The notes under the pieces were generated by a model that was given only the letters and a program-made list of their open reading frames with translations, made no database searches and was not told the DNA's origin. Positions 3,753-56,668 of a DNA stretch of 64,000 bases are shown here, piece by piece. Both the position numbers and the translations under genes were made by a program. This DNA comes from a virus: the IMG/VR virus record IMGVR_UViG_3300022848_000777, positions 1 through 64,000 of that record. One strand, written 5' to 3'. Every line of letters begins with the position of its first letter. Position 1 is the stretch's first letter.

Positions 3753-4355
3753 ATGACAAACAATAAATTAAAAAATATCCAAGCCATCAAAGAGATGTTA
3801 GATGGTCAACATCGAACGCAGACAAAAAATAATGTTGGTTTTAGAGATATCGAATTTCAAAAACGTGAAGTTGGTGACATTTGGGAAGATGTGAATGGGG
3901 ATCAATGGGAGCAAAAATCAGGCTTCAAAGTAAAAGTTGGTAAGTTGTCAGATAAGAGAAAAGAAATGCGAACTTTTTCAAAATGTAATAAGGAAGTATG
4001 TGATTGTACAGATCCAGGCAAAGCTGACCTAAAGATGAAATCTAGCCACGGTATGTGTTTAGAATGTGCAACTGATATGGAACATCTTCTTAAATTAAAT
4101 GGTGAGTATGATGAGTATGAACGTAATCGTGTATTGGAAAACGCAAAAGTGTGGCTACGAAATGCAGAGATAGAAAAAAATGTTCTAATAAGTACTCTTA
4201 AATCGCAGTTTATTAATGAAGATGGTAGTATTGAGGAATGGGATGGTTTGAATCCTGAGCAAATTGAACGACAAATTGAAAAAGGTTTTGATGATTTTAA
4301 AAATAACTTTATAAAGCAGTTAGAGGGACCTAAAAATGAAAAGGTTATTACGTAG
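3753..4355 (+). CDS. Hypothetical protein with a cysteine cluster
   Basis: 200 residues, predicted soluble. A Cys-rich stretch in the middle (SKCNKEVCDCTDPG, then HGMCLECATDME) supplies five to six cysteines spaced like a small zinc site. The C-terminal half is charged and probably helical. I do not recognise the family. It overlaps the next gene by 20 nt, so the two are translationally linked. It sits between candidate internal virion proteins and small membrane proteins; a morphogenesis or lysis-timing role would be speculation. Confidence 0.6.
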   Translation: MTNNKLKNIQAIKEMLDGQHRTQTKNNVGFRDIEFQKREVGDIWEDVNGDQWEQKSGFKVKVGKLSDKRKEMRTFSKCNKEVCDCTDPGKADLKMKSSHGMCLECATDMEHLLKLNGEYDEYERNRVLENAKVWLRNAEIEKNVLISTLKSQFINEDGSIEEWDGLNPEQIERQIEKGFDDFKNNFIKQLEGPKNEKVIT

Positions 4356-4701
4356 AATTGGTATTTTAGTAAAACACCTATTTAGTGACACTAATTCAAT
4401 AAATGAGAAATCAATTGTTGGGTTTTTGGCATTTGTTATGATGATATTTACATTAATTCTTGACATGGTAACTGGATTAATGGGGCGAGAGTTTCCAATA
4501 CATGAATTCGTTTATGACGGATTCTTATATATATGTATAGGTGCGTTAGGTATCGCATCGGTGGATAAGATATTCAGAAGGTCAGGCCCAACAAATGATA
4601 ACTTTGATATTGATGATGAATTTGATATGGAAGATGATCATACTAACGAATGTCATTGCGATATGCCACCAAAGAAATGCCATTGCCATAACCATAATTA
4701 A
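4336..4701 (+). CDS. Small two-TM membrane protein with Cys/His tail (holin candidate)
   Basis: 121 residues. Two hydrophobic segments (~residues 29-50, GFLAFVMMIFTLILDMV; ~65-82, GFLYICIGALGIASV) are separated by a short loop. They are followed by an acidic linker and a C-terminal tail rich in Cys and His (HTNECHCDMPPKKCHCHNHN), a likely metal-binding end. Size, two membrane spans and charged tail fit a class II-like holin; the Cys/His tail is unusual for one. It begins inside the previous gene. The possible spanin-like pair lies 1.5 kb downstream. Holin function is inferred from topology only. Confidence 0.5.
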   Translation: MKRLLRRIGILVKHLFSDTNSINEKSIVGFLAFVMMIFTLILDMVTGLMGREFPIHEFVYDGFLYICIGALGIASVDKIFRRSGPTNDNFDIDDEFDMEDDHTNECHCDMPPKKCHCHNHN

Positions 4702-37287: not shown

Positions 37288-37542
37288 ATGGATACTCCAA
37301 TTACAGAAAAAGATCAGCAAGAATTATACGAAAAATACGCCCCAGTTCCATTTCAACGTAGTTATTCCCGAAATTCATTACTTTTATTATTATCATTACC
37401 ATTAGTGTGGAATCCATTCCATCACTGCGAATGGCTTTATTGGAAATATGGTAAGGCTGATCGGTTACATAGAATATGTTGGACGTGTCGTAAGAAAGAA
37501 AAAAAACATCAAGGTGAGTGGGTAAAAGATCCAGTACTATGA
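37288..37542 (+). CDS. Small hypothetical protein with Cys/His and Trp
   Basis: 84 residues. Begins MDTPITEKDQQELYEKYAPV; the middle has SLLLLLSLPLVWNPFHHCEW, which could be a short membrane segment or a buried helix, and the C-terminus contains RICWTCRKKEKKHQGEW with a CxxC. H/C residues (HHCEW, CWTC) might form one zinc site. First gene after a TATATTG promoter. Its stop overlaps the next start (ATGA). Function unknown. Confidence 0.55.
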   Translation: MDTPITEKDQQELYEKYAPVPFQRSYSRNSLLLLLSLPLVWNPFHHCEWLYWKYGKADRLHRICWTCRKKEKKHQGEWVKDPVL

Positions 37543-38783
37543 TTAACTATATAATGAGTGGTTCAATATCCACTACAAATGCATTTGTGTATCCATTGTG
37601 GATGAGTGATACTATACACTCAGCAGTAGTTGGGTTATCAATTATATACATATATGATTTGGATTCTGAAAAGGAATATATTATAAATATAAATCATATG
37701 GATTCTGATAAAACTACGTTAAATGATGTTCAGTTGGATATCGACACGGCTTTTATATACAATATGAAATCAGCATTAAACTCAGAACTTAGGTTTAATA
37801 ATATGTATGATGCTGATATGTTGAAGTACTTACAGAAAAACGAAAAGTTGATCGATGAATTTACAACAGCTCATACGTTTTTCCATAGGAAATTTAGAAA
37901 CCTACAATTGATAAATAATTATATACCGATTGTAAAGCATTTAGAATCAATACGTGAATCTTTAGATGATTTTTTGAAATTCTACGAAAATCGAGATGGT
38001 GAATTGTTAGAGAAATTTTCAAAGTATTACTGCAAATCACTGTACGGTGTGGAGTCTAATGGTATTATGACAACAACAGGGTTAGAATATACCCACTACA
38101 ACCCATATACTTTGACATCCAGACCATCAAATACATTTAATGGTACAAACTATGCGGCACTTAAAAAAGATGATGATACCCGTAGTAGATTCATTTCCAG
38201 ATTTGTAGATGGTAAACTGATTCAATTCGATTATGATGCATATCACGTTCGTATTATAGCTGAAATGATAGGGTTTGAATTACCAATCGATCAATCGGCT
38301 CATAAGATTTTGAAAGAATACTATGGTGATGTATCATATGGTGATGCAAAGGGTATCACATTTAGACAATTATACGGTGGCGTTGAAGATAAGTACGCAC
38401 ATATTCCATTCTATCAAAGAATTGAGAATTTCAAAGATATTCTTTGGGATGATTTTCAAAAAAATGGTTATATAGAAACTGAATTAGGTAGAAAAATGAA
38501 AAAAGAATACTATACTGATTTCAATAAGAATAAACTATTCAATTACTTATTACAATCGACTGAGACTGAAAAGAACCTACAGAAAGTTTTAGAAATAAAT
38601 AAACAATTAGAGGATTATAAATCTAAGTTAGTTTTATATACCTACGATTCATACTTATTTGATGTATCACCCGATGAAGCTGGTGTATTATCTAAATTGA
38701 AAATACTTATAGATGAGGGTAATTTCCCCAGTAAGATTGAAATAGGTGAAAATTATTCCAAAATGGAAAGTTTTAATAAATGA
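37539..38783 (+). CDS. Small family-A DNA polymerase-like protein
   Basis: Start ATG 37539 overlaps the previous stop (ATGA); 414 residues. Polymerase A palm motifs are visible: a TGRL-like region around TTTGLEYTHYNPYTLTSRPS, motif A at GKLIQFDYDAYHVRIIAEMI (catalytic Asp, then R in place of E-L-R context), motif B/O-helix at DAKGITFRQLYGG (K, F and YG kept; the usual upstream Arg is absent), and motif C at YTYDSYLFDVSPDE (Asp kept, His-Asp-Glu changed to Tyr-Asp-Ser). N-terminal part may be a degraded exonuclease. The phage also encodes a PolB, so this is probably a specialised or repair polymerase. Activity is uncertain. Confidence 0.6.
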   Translation: MINYIMSGSISTTNAFVYPLWMSDTIHSAVVGLSIIYIYDLDSEKEYIININHMDSDKTTLNDVQLDIDTAFIYNMKSALNSELRFNNMYDADMLKYLQKNEKLIDEFTTAHTFFHRKFRNLQLINNYIPIVKHLESIRESLDDFLKFYENRDGELLEKFSKYYCKSLYGVESNGIMTTTGLEYTHYNPYTLTSRPSNTFNGTNYAALKKDDDTRSRFISRFVDGKLIQFDYDAYHVRIIAEMIGFELPIDQSAHKILKEYYGDVSYGDAKGITFRQLYGGVEDKYAHIPFYQRIENFKDILWDDFQKNGYIETELGRKMKKEYYTDFNKNKLFNYLLQSTETEKNLQKVLEINKQLEDYKSKLVLYTYDSYLFDVSPDEAGVLSKLKILIDEGNFPSKIEIGENYSKMESFNK

Positions 38784-45109: not shown

Positions 45110-46420
45110 ATGGATACATTCGGAAAGAGATTTGGTTCAAGTTTCCAAATAAAAATTCTATCAGCATTATTATCAGATAGGATATTTTTACAGACTATTT
45201 ATGATATTATAAAAGATGATTATTTCGATTCTGATGCAAATCAATGGATTTTAAGTAAAATATTAACCCACTTTGATAAATACAAACAAATACCAACCTT
45301 AGATGTATTTAAAACGGAATCAGATGCACTTAGTTCTGATATTCTAAGACAATCTGTATCAGATAACCTTAGAAATGTATGGGGTGGATTAGAATCCACT
45401 GAGTTAGAATACATAAAAGAGCAATCACTAGAGTTTTGTAAGAATCAGGAAGTTAAAAATGCTATCCTTGAATCGGTAGGTTTGCTTGAGAGTGGTAACT
45501 ACGAAGAAATTCAATCTAAAATAACCGCAGCTATGAAGGCTGGGCAGGATACTGATATCGGGCATGAGTATAATATTAGTATTGATGAACGTTATGCCGA
45601 TAGTGTTAGGAATGTAATTACAACAGGATGGCCTGCAATTGATGAATTAGTAGATGGTGGTTTCGGAAAAGGTGAATTAATTATCTTCGCAGCACCGCCA
45701 GGAATTGGTAAATCATGGGCTCTTATTAATGTGGGTATGGCTGCTGTCAGAGCTGGAAAAACGGTGGTACATTATACTTTAGAGTTAAACGAGGGATATG
45801 TTGGTCAGAGATATGATGCTGTGTTAACTAATATGGCAGTTACTAATTTGAAATATAACATAGATGATGTTAAATCTAGTATTAAAGAATTATCAGGTGA
45901 GCTTATAATAAAATATTGGCCCACAAAATCAGCATCCGTTAATTCCGTAAGGGCATCGGTTGATAAGCTCATATTACAAGGAAAGAAGCCTGATATCATT
46001 ATAGTTGATTATGCAGATTTACTTAAAGGCAATTCGAAGCGAGAGAAGCATGAAGAAATTGAAGAAGTAGTTGAGGAACTTAGAGGTTTGGCAGGGGAGT
46101 ATGAAGTACCATTATATACAGCATCTCAAATAAATCGTTGTCATAATGTAAATGATAACGTGGAAACTCCAACTGGTGATAAAAGGATTGGTGATGTGGA
46201 GATTGGAGACCAAATATTAACACATAAGGGATTTAAGAAAATAACAAATGTATTCCCAATTGAACGACAACCAACCTATCGTATTAAGCTTAAAGATGGT
46301 AGAGAGATAAATGTTTCAGCAGAACATATGATACCAACCCAATACAACAAAATAAAATCCATAGCAGATGGACTTTCAGTAGGTGAGAAATTATTTGTAA
46401 AAAAGAGTGGAAAAAAGTAA
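45110..46420 (+). CDS. 41: Replicative helicase gp41, N-extein plus 93-residue N-intein
   Basis: 436 residues. Residues 1-343 are the DnaB-type helicase: N-terminal helical domain, Walker A at ELIIFAAPPGIGKSWALI (~residue 195), VVHYTLELNE, Walker B at DIIIVDYADLLKGN and LYTASQINR. The Cys at residue 344 (nt 46139) starts an N-intein: CHNVNDNVETPTGDKRIGDV, GDQILTHKG, and INVSAEHMIPTQ (block B). It resembles the gp41-type split inteins found in metagenomes. The stop comes at the usual split point; the partner is at 47548. Trans-splicing would yield a 452-residue hexameric helicase. Confidence 0.9.
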   Translation: MDTFGKRFGSSFQIKILSALLSDRIFLQTIYDIIKDDYFDSDANQWILSKILTHFDKYKQIPTLDVFKTESDALSSDILRQSVSDNLRNVWGGLESTELEYIKEQSLEFCKNQEVKNAILESVGLLESGNYEEIQSKITAAMKAGQDTDIGHEYNISIDERYADSVRNVITTGWPAIDELVDGGFGKGELIIFAAPPGIGKSWALINVGMAAVRAGKTVVHYTLELNEGYVGQRYDAVLTNMAVTNLKYNIDDVKSSIKELSGELIIKYWPTKSASVNSVRASVDKLILQGKKPDIIIVDYADLLKGNSKREKHEEIEEVVEELRGLAGEYEVPLYTASQINRCHNVNDNVETPTGDKRIGDVEIGDQILTHKGFKKITNVFPIERQPTYRIKLKDGREINVSAEHMIPTQYNKIKSIADGLSVGEKLFVKKSGKK

Positions 46421-46440
46421 GGTTTTGCCATGCAGTTATA

Positions 46441-46448
46441 TACTTATA
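46441..46448 (+). promoter_or_regulatory. Late-type promoter variant TACTTATA before helicase endonuclease
   Basis: TACTTATATAAAAAGGATA, combining promoter motif and ribosome site 15-23 nt before ATG 46464. Confidence 0.45.
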
Positions 46449-46463
46449 TAAAAAGGATATAAT

Positions 46464-47555
46464 ATGGCATCAGTAAAGCAAGCTTGGATAACTAGATACG
46501 GAGAAGGGGAAGGTCTTCGTATGTGGGAAATACAAAAAAAGAAATATGGTAAAACACATGATGAATTGAGAACGAAACACGGTAATGATTACGTTGAATC
46601 GTTAGCAAAGAAGAAAAATACATTTTCATTAAAAGGGTGTATTGCCAAATATGGAAAAGTTGATGGTGCTGTTAAGTGGAATGATAGATTAAAAACCAAG
46701 TTAAAAACACAATCTGTTAATTTTAAAAACAAAAAATGGAATAATGGTAGAACCTTAGAATCATATCAACTTAGATACGGGGTAGCGGATGGTTACAGTA
46801 GGTGGGATAAACGGAATAAGCATCAATCCTATATGGCATCAACTCAACGTTATTTGGATGAATTTGGTGAAGATGGGTATGATATAATAAGAAAGATAAA
46901 AGATAACACATCTTTAGAGGCGTATCAAATTCAATACGGTGATGTAGATGGTTTAGTTCATTATAATAAGCACGTTGAACTGATGAAGAACGCATCAAAG
47001 AGGTGTATTGATTATTGGTTAACGTACCATAATGGTGATATTGAGTTAGCAACGCAATCGTTATCAGAGTATCAGAATAATACATCGTTATCATCATTTA
47101 CAAAACGATATGGTAAAGAAGTTGGGTTAGTTAAATATTTAAAATGGGTTGAGGCGGTAACAAAGTATGGATATAAAAGTTATAGTAAGATATCACAGAC
47201 ATTCTGTTGGAATTTGTATGATTCGCTAAATTTATCAATAAATGATACACAATTTTATGAATTAAATAATGAACAATCATTCTACTTTGGTAATAAGTTG
47301 ATTAAGGTTGATTTTAAGTATAAACAAAAGATTATAGAATTCAATGGTGATTATTGGCATGCAAATCCTAATCTGTATAGTGAATCTGATATGATAAAGG
47401 AATATACCGCTAGTGAAATATGGCATCGTGATTCCAATAGAATTGATTTATTAGAAAAAGCTGGTTATGATGTCTTAGTTGTATGGGAATCGGAGTATAA
47501 TGCGAATGGGAGTGATATCATAAACAAATGTAAAAAGTTTTTAGAAAATGAATAA
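46464..47555 (+). CDS. Free-standing Vsr-like homing endonuclease between helicase halves
   Basis: 363 residues. The N-terminal two thirds contain five copies of a ~22-residue motif YGxxxGxxxW/Y (TRYGEGEGLRMW, AKYGKVDGAVKW, LRYGVADGYSRW, IQYGDVDGLVHY, KRYGKEVGLVKY), likely DNA-contact modules. The C-terminal nuclease domain reads LIKVDFKYKQKIIEFNGDYW, HANPNLYSESD, EIWHRDSNRIDLLEKAGYDV and LVVWESEY, a Vsr-like (EDxHD) fold. It is more distant from the enzymes at 7809 and 54188. The last 8 bases overlap the C-intein gene, as at terminase. Expected to cut intein-free helicase alleles. Confidence 0.8.
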   Translation: MASVKQAWITRYGEGEGLRMWEIQKKKYGKTHDELRTKHGNDYVESLAKKKNTFSLKGCIAKYGKVDGAVKWNDRLKTKLKTQSVNFKNKKWNNGRTLESYQLRYGVADGYSRWDKRNKHQSYMASTQRYLDEFGEDGYDIIRKIKDNTSLEAYQIQYGDVDGLVHYNKHVELMKNASKRCIDYWLTYHNGDIELATQSLSEYQNNTSLSSFTKRYGKEVGLVKYLKWVEAVTKYGYKSYSKISQTFCWNLYDSLNLSINDTQFYELNNEQSFYFGNKLIKVDFKYKQKIIEFNGDYWHANPNLYSESDMIKEYTASEIWHRDSNRIDLLEKAGYDVLVVWESEYNANGSDIINKCKKFLENE

Positions 47556-48018
47556 ACATAATTTAAATCCAGATGATTTTGATTTGGTCGAAATTGAGAG
47601 TATTGAGCTAATCGGCGATTCAGATACTATTGATATTACCGTAGAGGATACACATATGTTCTTCGCTAATGGGGTATATAGTCATAATTCAGGCGCAGAT
47701 GATGATATTATTACAGGTACCAAAATAGCAGGTTCATTCTCAAAACTTATGACTGCTGATTTTGTAGTTTCACTGAGTAGAAAAATTGAAGATAAGTTAG
47801 CAGGTACGGGTCGATGGCATGTTATAAAGAACCGTTTCGGGCCCGATGGTACTACATTACCATCCAAAGCTAATATGTCCAGCGGTAAAATAGAGATATT
47901 TTCAGATAATTCAGTTGATGGTCAAAATACAAAAAAAGATATGAAAGAGGGGGAGACTTTTGTTAGACAGAATTTATTTCAAAAGTATAAAGAAATTAAC
48001 AACAAAGTTAACTTTTAA
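47548..48018 (+). CDS. 41: Replicative helicase gp41, 47-residue C-intein plus C-extein
   Basis: 156 residues. Residues 1-47 are the C-intein (IESIELIGDSDTIDITVEDT then HMFFANGVYSHN), ending in the His-Asn needed for Asn cyclisation. The C-extein starts at Ser48 (nt 47689): SGADDDIITGTKIAGSFSKL, then DFVVSLSRK and RWHVIKNRFGPDG, the C-terminal third of a DnaB-family ATPase including the arginine-finger region. N-extein ...SQINR plus SGADDD... reconstructs the usual helicase sequence. Start lies within the endonuclease stop (ATGAATAA). Confidence 0.9.
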   Translation: MNKHNLNPDDFDLVEIESIELIGDSDTIDITVEDTHMFFANGVYSHNSGADDDIITGTKIAGSFSKLMTADFVVSLSRKIEDKLAGTGRWHVIKNRFGPDGTTLPSKANMSSGKIEIFSDNSVDGQNTKKDMKEGETFVRQNLFQKYKEINNKVNF

Positions 48019-52196: not shown

Positions 52197-54149
52197 ATGG
52201 CATATCAGAACGTATTTTATGATAGTGATACTAGAATAATTCATTCATGGGATGATGTTCTTGGTTACGAAACGAGTAAGTATTCACCATATGCATACGT
52301 AAGAGATGGTAATGGTGCGCATACTTCAATATATGGTGATAGGGTTAAGAAAGTAACCTATTGGAAAGATTACAATCCTAATGATCTATTTGAATCTGAT
52401 GTAAATGAAATTACTAGATTTCTAATAGATAAGTATGGGGAATCTGATGAAGTATCTAAAAATCATTGTACACTTACATTTGATATTGAGGTAGAAATGA
52501 ATTCAGGTTTACCCGATACCACTAAAGCTGAAAATGAAGTAACTGCAATAGCATTTCACGATTCTATAACAAATGACAAAGGTGTTTATGTAGTTCATAC
52601 GGGTAAAGAAATTGATAGGAAAATAAAAGGTGCTAATGTAAAATCCTTTAACACTGAGGCTGATATGCTATCTGCATTTTTAAATAAATGGGTAGATATA
52701 TCGCCAACAATAGTGACGGGTTGGAATATTGATTACTTTGATGTTACATATCTTTACAACCGATTGTGTAATGTATTCTCAACGACTGAGGCTAACAGAT
52801 TGTCACCAATTGGTAAAATAAAGTATAATAAATATAGAAAACGTTACCTTATAGCAGGTGTATCTTGTTTAGATTATATGGCATTGTTTAAAAACTTCAC
52901 ATACACAGAACACCCGAATTATAGACTTGATACTATAGCAACTTTAGAGTTAGGTCGTGGTAAGATTGAATATGATGGTAACTTAGATCAATTATTCAGA
53001 GATGATATTGAAAAGTTTATTGAATATAACCTAGTCGATGTTGAGTTGGTTGTTGATTTAGATAAGAAGTTACAGTTTATTGATTTGGCAAGGGCAATAT
53101 GCCACACAGGCCATGTTGCTTATGAGGATTTTCTTTTCTCTTCAAAGTGGTTAGAGGGGGCTATGCTCACATTTCTACGTAGAAGTGGTAGGGTTGCACC
53201 GAATAAACCCAATAGAGTTTCACTAAAGATAAACTCAGGTAAAAAAGGTGAAAATCGAATCTATTTAGAGAATTTACCGAATCTAACACCCCGATCAGGG
53301 AAACTAAAGATTTGGAAATCGAAATCATCTAAGATATCAGTAGAGTATGATGATATTGATTTCTCTACCAATTCATTTATATTGAAGCACCCATTAAAGG
53401 AAACCTTAAAAAAAGAATGGATACTTAAACTTGATTTTGAGGGGGCTTATGTAAAAGAACCAAAACCAGGACTATATAAATGGGTATATGATTTAGATTT
53501 AACATCAATATATCCCTGTATCATTATGACTATTAACATATCACCCGAAACTCAAGTGGGTAATATAACAAATTATTCCACAGAGGCTTATATGCGGCAT
53601 GATATTTCTAAGTTTGAAATAACAGATATTCATGGTAATATATCAGATCCGATGGATAGGGTTGAGTATGATGCATTCATTACAAAGATGAATCTAAGTG
53701 TAGCTGCTAATGGTACATTATACGACCAAAGTAAAGTTGGTATAATTCCTGAAATTTTGAATGTTTGGTTCGACAAGAGAGTTGAATATAAAGATTTGAT
53801 GAAGAAGTTCGGAAAAGCAGGTGATGATGATAAGTATAAATTTTACAATCAACGGCAATCCGTGCAGAAGATTATGCTCAATTCCCTTTATGGTGTACTT
53901 GGTTTGGAGTCATTTAGATTCTATAATGTGAAAAACGCGGAAGCGGTAACACTTACAGGGCAGACTGTAATTAAAACCACTGAGTTAATAGCTAATAATT
54001 ATTATAATAGTGTAACGGGCGATGCTTATGTAATTCAATTAGAAAATGGTGAAACTGTTAGTATGGGTGGTAATCTACCTGTTACGTTAACTAATGGAAT
54101 GATAAAGAAAGTTTCAGAATTAACAGAAGAAGATGATGTTTTATTATAA
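52197..54149 (+). CDS. 43: Family-B DNA polymerase, N-terminal part plus 46-residue N-intein-like tail
   Basis: 650 residues. Exonuclease motifs: LTFDIEVEMNSGLPD (Exo I), IVTGWNIDYFDVTYLYNR (Exo II) and YNLVDVELVVDLD (Exo III). Polymerase motif A is WVYDLDLTSIYPCIIMTINI and motif B is RQSVQKIMLNSLYGVLGLES. The chain then runs to IANNYYN, and from Ser605 (nt 54009) switches to SVTGDAYVIQLENGETVSMG, an intein block A like archaeal polymerase inteins (SVTGDTE...), stopping at 54149. The catalytic motif C (DTDS) is absent here and lies in the gene at 54996. Alone this piece cannot polymerise DNA. Confidence 0.88.
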   Translation: MAYQNVFYDSDTRIIHSWDDVLGYETSKYSPYAYVRDGNGAHTSIYGDRVKKVTYWKDYNPNDLFESDVNEITRFLIDKYGESDEVSKNHCTLTFDIEVEMNSGLPDTTKAENEVTAIAFHDSITNDKGVYVVHTGKEIDRKIKGANVKSFNTEADMLSAFLNKWVDISPTIVTGWNIDYFDVTYLYNRLCNVFSTTEANRLSPIGKIKYNKYRKRYLIAGVSCLDYMALFKNFTYTEHPNYRLDTIATLELGRGKIEYDGNLDQLFRDDIEKFIEYNLVDVELVVDLDKKLQFIDLARAICHTGHVAYEDFLFSSKWLEGAMLTFLRRSGRVAPNKPNRVSLKINSGKKGENRIYLENLPNLTPRSGKLKIWKSKSSKISVEYDDIDFSTNSFILKHPLKETLKKEWILKLDFEGAYVKEPKPGLYKWVYDLDLTSIYPCIIMTINISPETQVGNITNYSTEAYMRHDISKFEITDIHGNISDPMDRVEYDAFITKMNLSVAANGTLYDQSKVGIIPEILNVWFDKRVEYKDLMKKFGKAGDDDKYKFYNQRQSVQKIMLNSLYGVLGLESFRFYNVKNAEAVTLTGQTVIKTTELIANNYYNSVTGDAYVIQLENGETVSMGGNLPVTLTNGMIKKVSELTEEDDVLL

Positions 54150-54156
54150 TTAATAC

Positions 54157-54164
54157 TACTTATA
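54157..54164 (+). promoter_or_regulatory. Late-type promoter variant TACTTATA before polymerase endonuclease
   Basis: TACTTATATATAG lies 24 nt before ATG 54188. Confidence 0.45.
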
Positions 54165-54187
54165 TATAGAAACGGGGGTATCAACGT

Positions 54188-55015
54188 ATGATTGAATGTA
54201 AAATATGTAATAAGAAGTATAACACCATCACAGCAACTCATTTAAAGACACATGGTATTAGTATGGCAGATTATCGAACTAAATTTCCCAATGTACCAAT
54301 CCAATCAGATGGGATGATTCAGAGGGGAGTTCACTCATTAGAAAATATGATACGAAGGCATGGTGATGTTCAAGGTAATATTAGATGGGAAGATTATAAA
54401 CAAAAACAGGCGTATACGAATACATTTGAATACAAACGTGATATTTGTGGTTGGGATGAGGATCAGTTCAATGCGTATAATAAAAAGAGAGGTAGTTTTG
54501 GTGAGTTGAATGGTAATCATGGGTCATCGTATTATCAGATTTGGATTGAAAAGTATGGTAGAGATGTGGCAGATGATATGAATTTTCAGTTATCTAAACG
54601 TAAAGCTAGACATGGTGAAGATAATGGTAACTATAAGAGATCAAAAAGACCTGATGAACTGAAACGAATGAGTGTATCTGCAATAGAGCGTGTAAAACGT
54701 AATGGGATGCCACATTCATATAATCCAAATTCAATTCCAATTATAGAACGGTATGGGTTGGATAATGGATATACATTTCAGCATGCTGAAAATGGTGGTG
54801 AGTATCAAATACCAGATAATACGTTTTTTGTAGATGGGTATGATAGATCAAATAATGTAGTGATTGAATATGATGAACAACGACATTTTAGAAACGGAGA
54901 ATTGCATCCAAAAGATATATGGAGAATGAACTTGATTATATCGAAATTAAAGTGTGTGTTTGTAAGAATCGATTATAAGGGCAATATAACAAAATATGAA
55001 AATAAAAACAATTAA
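54188..55015 (+). CDS. Free-standing Vsr-like homing endonuclease between polymerase halves
   Basis: 275 residues. A C2H2-like finger opens the protein (IECKICNKKYNTITATHLKT), a YGxxxGxxxW-type module follows (RRHGDVQGNIRWEDYK), and the nuclease domain SIPIIERYGLDNGYTFQHAE, NGGEYQI, FVDGYDRSNNVVIEYDEQRH and KCVFVRIDY is the same as in the terminase-associated enzyme at 7809. Active-site candidates are the D..E.D..H residues of this block. Its 3' end overlaps the small start codon of the polymerase C-part by 20 nt. Likely acts on intact polymerase alleles. Confidence 0.8.
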   Translation: MIECKICNKKYNTITATHLKTHGISMADYRTKFPNVPIQSDGMIQRGVHSLENMIRRHGDVQGNIRWEDYKQKQAYTNTFEYKRDICGWDEDQFNAYNKKRGSFGELNGNHGSSYYQIWIEKYGRDVADDMNFQLSKRKARHGEDNGNYKRSKRPDELKRMSVSAIERVKRNGMPHSYNPNSIPIIERYGLDNGYTFQHAENGGEYQIPDNTFFVDGYDRSNNVVIEYDEQRHFRNGELHPKDIWRMNLIISKLKCVFVRIDYKGNITKYENKNN

Positions 55016-55909
55016 AAAAACAAACGTCGGCGTAGATTACAACATCTACGTCGACACGTAACTGATTCAGTATTTTATGAAGCAGCTCCATTGGTTAAGG
55101 CTAGAAATCCTAAAATCGATGTTAATTCTGATGAAGAAATGATACCTGCCATTCTTAGTGTTGCAAAAGAAGTGCAAGATCACATCAATAAAACATATGA
55201 TGTGATGGCTAAATCCATGTTTAATACCAGTAACCATAGATTTGACATAAAGCAAGAAACAATCGCAAAGGGTGGATTTTGGGTATCTAAAAAACGATAC
55301 GCTCAGTGGATTATAAATGATAACTCTGTTAATTGTGATAAGTTGGATGTAAAGGGGTTAGATGTAAAACGAAGTTCATTTCCTGTATACTTTAAGGAAG
55401 TGATGTCTGAAATATTATGGTCTATTCTAAAAGATGATGCGAAATTGAACATCGATAAAAAGATATTAGATTATAAAGATGGTATGGAAAATTACTACTA
55501 TGTTGATATTGCAAAGAATTCAGCAATTACGGATATGAGTAAGCATTTATTTAAAAACCAAGCTCTTGGTGAGTTTCAAAAGGGAACACCCGCTCACGTT
55601 AAAGCAGCAATAACTTATAATCAATTATTAAAAAAGTTCAATACTGCTTTTAAATACGAACCAATTAAAGATGGTGATAAGGTTAAATGGGTGTATTTAA
55701 AGAATAATCCATTGGGATTGAATGGGGTTGCATTGAATGGGTATAATGATCCTGATGAAATAATTGAGTTCATTAAAACCTACATAGATTTCGAATTAAT
55801 TTGGGAAAAAGAACTTCAAAATAAATTAGATGATTTCTATGATGCAATGAAATGGGATTTACCAAACCCAAACTTAGATAAAGCAGCAGAGTTTTTCGAC
55901 TTTAATTAG
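54996..55909 (+). CDS. 43: Family-B DNA polymerase C-terminal part, frame broken inside motif C
   Basis: ATG 54996 reads MKIKTIKKTN then VGVDYNIYVDT to TAA at 55059-55061. The polymerase continues in another frame from ACT 55061: TDSVFYEAAPLVKARNPK, KKRYAQWIINDN, YLKNNPLGLNG, to stop 55909. Removing 5 nt restores YVDTDSVF, the catalytic motif C. No C-intein precedes it, unlike the other fractured genes. Options: ribosome hop from ACG (Thr) over TA to ACT (Thr); another recoding event; independent initiation downstream (TTG 55091), which would lose motif C; or an assembly error. The palm/thumb remainder looks intact and under selection. Confidence 0.65.
55026..55055 (+). promoter_or_regulatory. 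GC-rich 12-bp hairpin immediately before the polymerase stop/hop site
   Basis: GTCGGCGTAGAT (55026-55037), loop TACAAC, ATCTACGTCGAC (55044-55055): 12 pairs with one G-U. It lies inside the coding sequence for VGVDYNIYVD and abuts the ACG codon and TAA. Its C-ending codons are unlike the rest of the genome. Possible recoding signal. Confidence 0.6.
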
Positions 55910-55936
55910 GATAATCGAAAATAAATTCGTATATTG
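55907..55936 (+). promoter_or_regulatory. TATATTG promoter (weak upstream element) before clamp
   Basis: TATATTG at 55930-55936 in the same ATTCGTATATTGTATAAAATA context as the polymerase promoter; the element 20 nt upstream is TAG rather than TTG. 22 nt before the clamp start. Confidence 0.6.
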
Positions 55937-55957
55937 TATAAAATAAACAAATTATAA

Positions 55958-56668
55958 ATGGATAAAAAGACAATTGAAAACTTTATAAACCGATATAGTA
56001 TTGGTGGTGAGGTAGAATCAGTTACAATAAAAGTTGATTCAGACAAAATGAGTGTAAATTTCATATCAGATGATAAAACATTATTAGGAACTGTTACCTC
56101 TGATGTAGTGGGCTTTCCCGATGGTGAGTTCAGTATATACACAACATCGCAACTTAAAGCTATGTTAAATATTCTTGAATCTAGCATAACCGTTGGTAGT
56201 AAAGTTAATGAGGCGAGTAAAGAGGCATTCATTAAGTTCTCAGATAAATCTACATCTGTTACTTATATGTTATGTGAGCCATCTGTAATTCCAGTAGTAC
56301 CACCTTTGAAGGCAATTCCTGATTTTGAGGTAAAAATTGACATAGATGATGATTTCATTTCTAAGTACACCAAAGCTAAATCGGGTATCAGTTCTGATAA
56401 GTTTACTTTCATTCGAAATGAAAAAGATGCTGAAATCGTTTTAGGTTACTCATCACGGAATACAAACCGTGTATCAATTCAGATTGATTGTAAATGTGCC
56501 ACTGATGTAGATCCAATTTCATTTTCTTCAAATTATCTTAAAGAAATATTGACATCAAATCGAGGTTCTAAATCAGCAACAATGGAAATATCCACTAAGG
56601 GGCTGTGTAGGCTTGTATTTAAAACAGATGAAATTGAGAGTACCTATCTATTAGTTCAAATGAAATAG
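55958..56668 (+). CDS. 45: Sliding clamp (gp45-like)
   Basis: 236 residues, near T4 gp45 (228). Two-domain beta-rich architecture: IENFINRYSIGGEVESVTIK at the N-terminus, FSIYTTSQLKAMLNILESSI ending the first domain, then FEVKIDIDDDFISKYTKAKS and SSNYLKEILTSNRGSKSATM with the terminal LCRLVFKTDEIESTYLLVQM strand. The trimeric ring tethers polymerase to DNA and in T4 also activates late transcription. It lies between polymerase and clamp-loader genes, as in T4-like replication clusters. Confidence 0.83.
   Translation: MDKKTIENFINRYSIGGEVESVTIKVDSDKMSVNFISDDKTLLGTVTSDVVGFPDGEFSIYTTSQLKAMLNILESSITVGSKVNEASKEAFIKFSDKSTSVTYMLCEPSVIPVVPPLKAIPDFEVKIDIDDDFISKYTKAKSGISSDKFTFIRNEKDAEIVLGYSSRNTNRVSIQIDCKCATDVDPISFSSNYLKEILTSNRGSKSATMEISTKGLCRLVFKTDEIESTYLLVQMK

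Follow-up and report, generated by a model that had tools for sequence, protein, structure and literature searches.

A family-B polymerase gene interrupted within motif C

How can a phage obtain an intact DNA polymerase from a gene whose catalytic motif is broken by a stop codon and a change of reading frame? The question is raised by the family-B polymerase (PolB) gene in IMG/VR virus record IMGVR_UViG_3300022848_000777, a record of 174,750 nt of which positions 1–64,000 were analysed here (the window, to which coordinates refer). The comparative evidence strongly suggests that the answer is a programmed ribosomal hop over five nucleotides.

The gene is split into an N-part, an endonuclease-like open reading frame (ORF) and a C-part that carries the frame break, all on the plus strand. 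The N-part (52197–54149, 650 aa; Pfam DNA_pol_B_exo1 and DNA_pol_B, phrog_262) comprises the exonuclease, motifs A and B and, following motif B (KIMLNSLYG), a C-terminal tail of ∼43 aa, GDAYVIQLENGETVSMGGNLPVTLTNGMIKKVSELTEEDDVLL (54018–54146), which aligns across seven lineages and is absent from intact polymerases. The ORF between the halves (54188–55015, 275 aa; phrog_22677) gives a weak match to the ROS_MUCR zinc finger and overlaps the start of the C-part; its residues VIEYDEQRHF look Vsr-like on our own reading. The C-part begins at ATG 54996 with a short head ORF, MKIKTIKKTNVGVDYNIYVDT (54996–55061), which reads VGVDYNIYVDT up to ACG (55056–55058, the candidate take-off codon) and then meets TAA (55059–55061). 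In another frame, TDSVFYEAAP opens at ACT (55061–55063, the candidate landing codon), from which the motif C frame (TDSVF) continues to 55909 (Pfam DNA_pol_B, model positions 247–413; phrog_262, model positions 579–850). By the Pfam and phrog matches, the two cistrons jointly encode one PolB, and omission of 5 nt restores YVDTDSVF. The initial annotation had placed the two parts, the ATG, the stop and the resumption of the frame at these positions and had derived the restored motif from a 5-nt deletion; re-reading confirmed each of these, together with a 12-bp hairpin at the take-off codon. The hairpin has a 6-nt loop (55026–55055; stem 55026–55037/55044–55055, with one G-U pair) and directly abuts ACG.

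The interruption recurs across phage lineages

An identical stretch of 12,846 nt was assembled from a different sample (L001), which excludes a private sequencing or assembly error. Nearly all of the close relatives first fetched carry an unbroken ...YYxKxIGxxxDYN[IV]Y[TV]DTDSVF. One contig, L054, has the same interruption with a GIY-YIG homing endonuclease gene in place of the 275-aa ORF, and a strict pattern (DYN[IV]Y[TV]D-ACN-stop) also matches L084, L085, L087, L088 and L090. A looser pattern (Y-x-D-ACN-TRA with TDS resuming at +5), which adds L107–L116, brings the count to 17 viral contigs from about eight lineages, every one of them (17/17) a split PolB, so that the comparison with related phages proposed in the initial annotation does recover the same insertion. 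Run on 257 Gb of bacterial and archaeal genomes, this pattern returned six chance matches, none of them (0/6) in a polymerase. When the codon 5′ of the stop was left unspecified, the identical 17 loci were returned; that codon is therefore always ACN, i.e. Thr (17/17). In every lineage it is followed directly by UAA or UGA and then by C, and the landing codon is ACT, ACA or ACC, so that both codons are ACN throughout and always share their first two bases. With the tail alone as query, only the known loci were recovered and one further contig, L094, which ends before its C-part. More than 150 intact relatives have no gap, no tail and no hairpin, and read YxDTDS exactly. In two interrupted lineages, L107 and L109, the polymerase halves are not separated by a nuclease gene, which indicates that the recoding signal persists without one.

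Such recurrence bears on whether the gene is merely broken, through decay or faulty assembly, while another polymerase replicates the phage. A possible substitute exists in the window, a family-A-like ORF of 421 aa (37518–38783). It lacks parts of the usual motifs, however, and is present as well in Mel-JY01, which has an intact PolB. The arrangement at PolB is moreover identical in many assemblies and in eight lineages, and selection is strong on both sides of the gap: nonsynonymous variation (pN) is far below synonymous variation (pS) in the C-part, and pN<pS also in the tail. Judged from these ratios, the C-part is under strong purifying selection and the tail is under purifying selection too, and a broken gene is extremely unlikely. 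The initial annotation had held that a second intact polymerase gene would weaken its proposal; none of family B was found in the 174,750-nt record, and the one candidate found is the short family-A-like ORF just described, which PolB-intact relatives share. That ORF matches phrog_17, resembles a family-A polymerase domain with altered motifs and no exonuclease, and has relatives in Mel-JY01, LR756508 and Flavobacterium phage immuto.

A covarying hairpin abuts the take-off codon

A stem of this kind would by itself be weak evidence, as the whole record has only eight of them (five distinct sites), compared with 0, 1, 0, 1 and 10 in five Markov simulations. The arrangement nonetheless exceeds chance: the 70 nt upstream of the take-off codon in the window fold at z = −7.5, and independent lineages share it. 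In an alignment of seven sequences the 12 pairs are 97.6% formed, with two-sided changes in 5 of the 12 and a covariation score above all 500 shuffles and every slid register used as controls. This pattern of substitution argues that the hairpin is kept through compensatory changes in a constant register relative to the take-off codon. Intact polymerases lack the residues encoded in the left arm, and these amino acids track the sequence complementary to the right arm (V-G or V-H opposite Y-T or Y-V), as expected if pairing, not protein sequence, is what is conserved. Codons within the window hairpin have G or C at the third position in 80% of cases, as against 25% in the remaining polymerase. 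At the corresponding site of 76 intact relatives the folding energy averages −7.6 kcal/mol with a minimum of −12.4 kcal/mol, whereas gapped lineages range from −11.6 to −24.9 kcal/mol. In all lineages except L108 the stem extends to the base immediately 5′ of ACN, and in L108 it ends one base short; the hairpins of L107 and L113 are longer and branched and still reach the base adjoining ACN.

Gapless and spliced relatives

The polymerase of L204 has the same split point, its tail, GYEVIVKMEDNSTRTYYSNNFISIMRNGILTKVKASELLETDDIV, and head, MKIKKIIKNENVEIDHVQYVDTDSVF, are related ones, and the sequence runs gapless through YVDTDSVF with no hairpin (−4.5 kcal/mol). L204 thus has the predicted hop product encoded as a plain gene, and it links the hairpin to the gap and not to the split. 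The ORF between its polymerase halves (4028–4687, reverse strand) is glycosyltransferase-like and not a nuclease. In the jumbo phage LR756508 the polymerase is likewise split, and its head, MKTKKIKNIPESKLNQDGEKEYCVYTD (MKTKKIKN...YCVYTD), is followed by an intein that ends in VVHN immediately before TDSVF, again with no hairpin; protein splicing here presumably acts exactly where the other phages would hop. The PolB of LR756508.1 (259366–267284; L082, L203) has two inteins, one near motif B and one at motif C, and is encoded by two genes >3 kb apart with several other genes in between.

These relatives constrain two further explanations. An ordinary −1 (or +2) frameshift at the stop would leave added residues in motif C (YVDTVTDSVF or YVDTTDSVF), and the frame difference does equal −1, with slippage favoured by a stop in the A site. 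There are no slippery codons at the site, however, and in the window the Thr-tRNA would have to re-pair with CAC. The motif is exactly YxDTDS in the >150 intact relatives, in L204 and in the splice product of LR756508, whereas a −1 shift would add two residues, and extra residues within the catalytic turn would be expected to inactivate the enzyme. We therefore regard a frameshift as very unlikely. Termination followed by re-initiation just upstream of TDSVF, at an overlapping NTGA, would instead give a C-part without the YVD strand. In the TGA lineages, the codon before TDS is a possible start (GTG in L054, CTG in L107 and TTG in L108). The five TAA lineages have GTA, CTA or TTA at this position and no start codon upstream in that frame, which leaves only the three TGA lineages open to re-initiation. 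As it also leaves unexplained the invariant Thr codon, the head, the hairpin and the contiguous head and YVDTDSVF of L204, it retains only a slim probability.

The insert behaves as a mobile cassette

On a tree of the C-parts, the interrupted state requires six changes, and inheritance from one common origin is rejected (approximately unbiased test, p about 1e-45), i.e. the trait is polyphyletic. The C-part of L054 is 94% identical to that of the intact L079, and comparison with this empty site reveals that ∼1.07 kb replaces 9 bases, that the right hairpin arm is recoded and that five bases are extra, which fits a mobile cassette. Judged by such comparisons, the insert at motif C, comprising tail, nuclease ORF, head, hairpin and 5-nt gap, acts as a single mobile cassette, in which the gap and the recoded arms may protect the site from the endonuclease. 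In Synechococcus phage ACG-2014f (KJ019151.1/KJ019146.1; H37, H38), the polymerase match falls into three pieces spread over two genes annotated as polymerase and two hypothetical proteins; this may be a further split PolB.

A mobile insert with homing-type endonucleases and a strong hairpin at its boundary would also suit removal at the RNA level, whether the gap is an intron or is edited out, or the whole insert is an intron. We consider this highly improbable: no group I or group II covariance model of Rfam matches within 53000–56000, conservation of the tail and head is at the protein level, and in L107 and L109 the halves are separated by no nuclease gene. We know of no precedent for a 5-nt intron.

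Tail and head of the polymerase halves

The initial annotation had described the tail of the N-part as N-intein-like. The tail exists, but its likeness to an intein is weak, with neither Cys1 nor the block-B His. AlphaFold predicts it as four strands (predicted local distance difference test, pLDDT, about 70–81); the model of the N-part built with seven sequences has a pLDDT of 64 and is useful only for this strand prediction. No other copies of the tail were found within the record, and no relatives in named phages by tblastn; a Pfam and NCBIfam search of tail plus head gave at best a weak intein signal. A similar lysine-rich head is present in all of the interrupted lineages and in the gapless L204. 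The tail is probably a docking domain for the other half, and tail and head together probably serve the assembly of the two halves.

A split intein that trans-splices the halves, as in fractured genes of the gp41-1/NrdJ-1 kind, would account for the order of N-part, endonuclease and C-part; tail plus head match Intein_splicing in two of seven lineages, weakly and below the cut-off, and a plausible split intein is present in the helicase gene of this phage. Against this, the polymerase halves lack block A (Cys/Ser1), block B (TxxH) and, ahead of the C-extein, block G (HN); the extein residues DYNIYVDT lie within the head, and the frame break would persist after splicing. Trans-splicing is accordingly given almost no probability, and a decayed intein as the origin of tail and head is possible, on the weak match above. 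The replicative helicase gene (45110–48018) is fractured into an ORF that ends in a plausible N-intein, an endonuclease-like ORF (46464–47555) and a C-intein (...DTHMFFANGVYSHN, directly before Ser) joined to the helicase C-part, with intein landmarks present.

A model for 5-nt bypassing

We consider it quite probable that the C-part is made by programmed +5 ribosome bypassing, with a 5′ hairpin and a stop codon in the A site. The replicative polymerase would be made as two polypeptides, the second beginning at ATG 54996. The ribosome would read to ACG, whereupon, with the stop in the A site, peptidyl-tRNA-Thr would detach, the mRNA would slide by 5 nt, and the tRNA would re-pair on the ACU that shares the last base of the stop. 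Decoding would then restart at GAT 55064 to give ...YNIYVDTDSVFYEAAP..., with TNVGVDYNIYVDTDSVFYEAAPLVK as the predicted tryptic peptide across the junction. Across lineages, a P-site tRNA-Thr would face UAA or UGA followed by C, and a +5 movement would place it on ACU, ACA or ACC and so yield YxDTDS. Refolding of the hairpin behind the ribosome most likely drives the slide, as proposed for the 5′ stem-loop of gene 60 of phage T4. The phage has one tRNA-Thr (UGU) gene, whose product could pair with most of the take-off and landing codons. A cluster of 27 tRNA genes and a tmRNA gene, possibly a near-full decoding set, lies at about 130937–139810 of the phage record.

The initial annotation had proposed a short hop or other recoding of the gene 60 type with a link to homing endonucleases, and this idea fits the Thr codon, the stop, the covarying hairpin and the hairpin-free intact and gapless relatives. 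Several observations weigh against bypassing. At take-off the nascent chain is only about 19–28 residues long, and a KKYK signal like that of gene 60 was not found in it; the heads are lysine-rich, with MKI in seven of eight lineages and MIVKSIK in L113. Conserved structure 3′ of the gap, either a 3′ stem-loop or a take-off stem-loop, was not found across the lineages, and L108 has a weak hairpin (−11.6 kcal/mol, z −1.9). In only three of eight lineages do take-off and landing codons agree in all bases (ACT/ACT); the earlier suggestion that they match in amino acid alone holds here (ACG/ACT) and is not general.

Relation to known systems

In gene 60, the stop after the take-off codon and the role of the 5′ stem-loop as a motor are established (PMC5009743, PMC11194080). 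The present locus resembles it in the stop, the synonymous codons, the 5′ stem-loop and the presence of an insert in a replication gene beside a homing endonuclease (PMC5009743, PMC11194080, PMC2988022). It differs in that the gap is 5 nt rather than the 50 nt of gene 60, which lies next to mobA, the landing codon overlaps the stop, the hairpin abuts the take-off codon, and the hop would open the second half of a split gene, in many lineages rather than one; neither a KKYK signal nor a take-off or 3′ stem-loop was found here. Hops of +5 and +6 occur in synthetic constructs in Escherichia coli (Weiss et al. 1987, as cited in PMC5009743); there peptidyl-tRNA likewise passes over a stop and lands on a synonymous codon at a distance of 5 or 6 nt, whereas the putative hop here is natural, conserved, in an essential gene and provided with a dedicated 5′ hairpin. 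The byp elements of Magnusiomyces capitatus mitochondria are similarly mobile short inserts that are bypassed, with codons that are not always identical; they are mitochondrial and, per the review, context-independent, in contrast to the fixed hairpin here (PMC5009743).

Endonucleases are known to have split gp43 of Aeromonas phage 25 and NrdA of Aeh1, in both cases with functional reassembly (PMC2988022). The gp43A/gp43B halves of Aeromonas phages 25 and 44RR co-purify and are active (Petrov et al. 2010, as cited in PMC2988022). There too PolB is divided between two cistrons, and phage 25 has a seg-type endonuclease; that account describes no bypass. NrdA-a/NrdA-b of Aeh1 is likewise an essential gene split by endonuclease insertion whose parts assemble (PMC2988022), although the gene is another and no recoding is described.

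Implications

Shorter-range counterparts of gene 60 bypassing have long been presumed (PMC5009743), and we found no prior report of bypassing in a phage polymerase in the open-access literature. Gene 60 is the one well-studied bacterial or phage bypass. A 5-nt bypass maintained by covariation in many lineages and with natural gapless controls would offer a small, testable system for the roles of the 5′ hairpin, the stop and the codon match. Gene callers would miss the essential catalytic motif at this locus. Whether the signal amounts to a compact and portable module (a 12-bp hairpin, ACN, and TRA overlapping ACW, with little else needed) we judge an even question; such a module would have entered unrelated phage polymerases again and again, accompanied by a homing nuclease or not, would be efficient enough for a replicative polymerase, and its gap would hide the most conserved codons from homing nucleases. 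The findings also suggest bypass-plus-endonuclease cassettes as a recurrent kind of mobile element.

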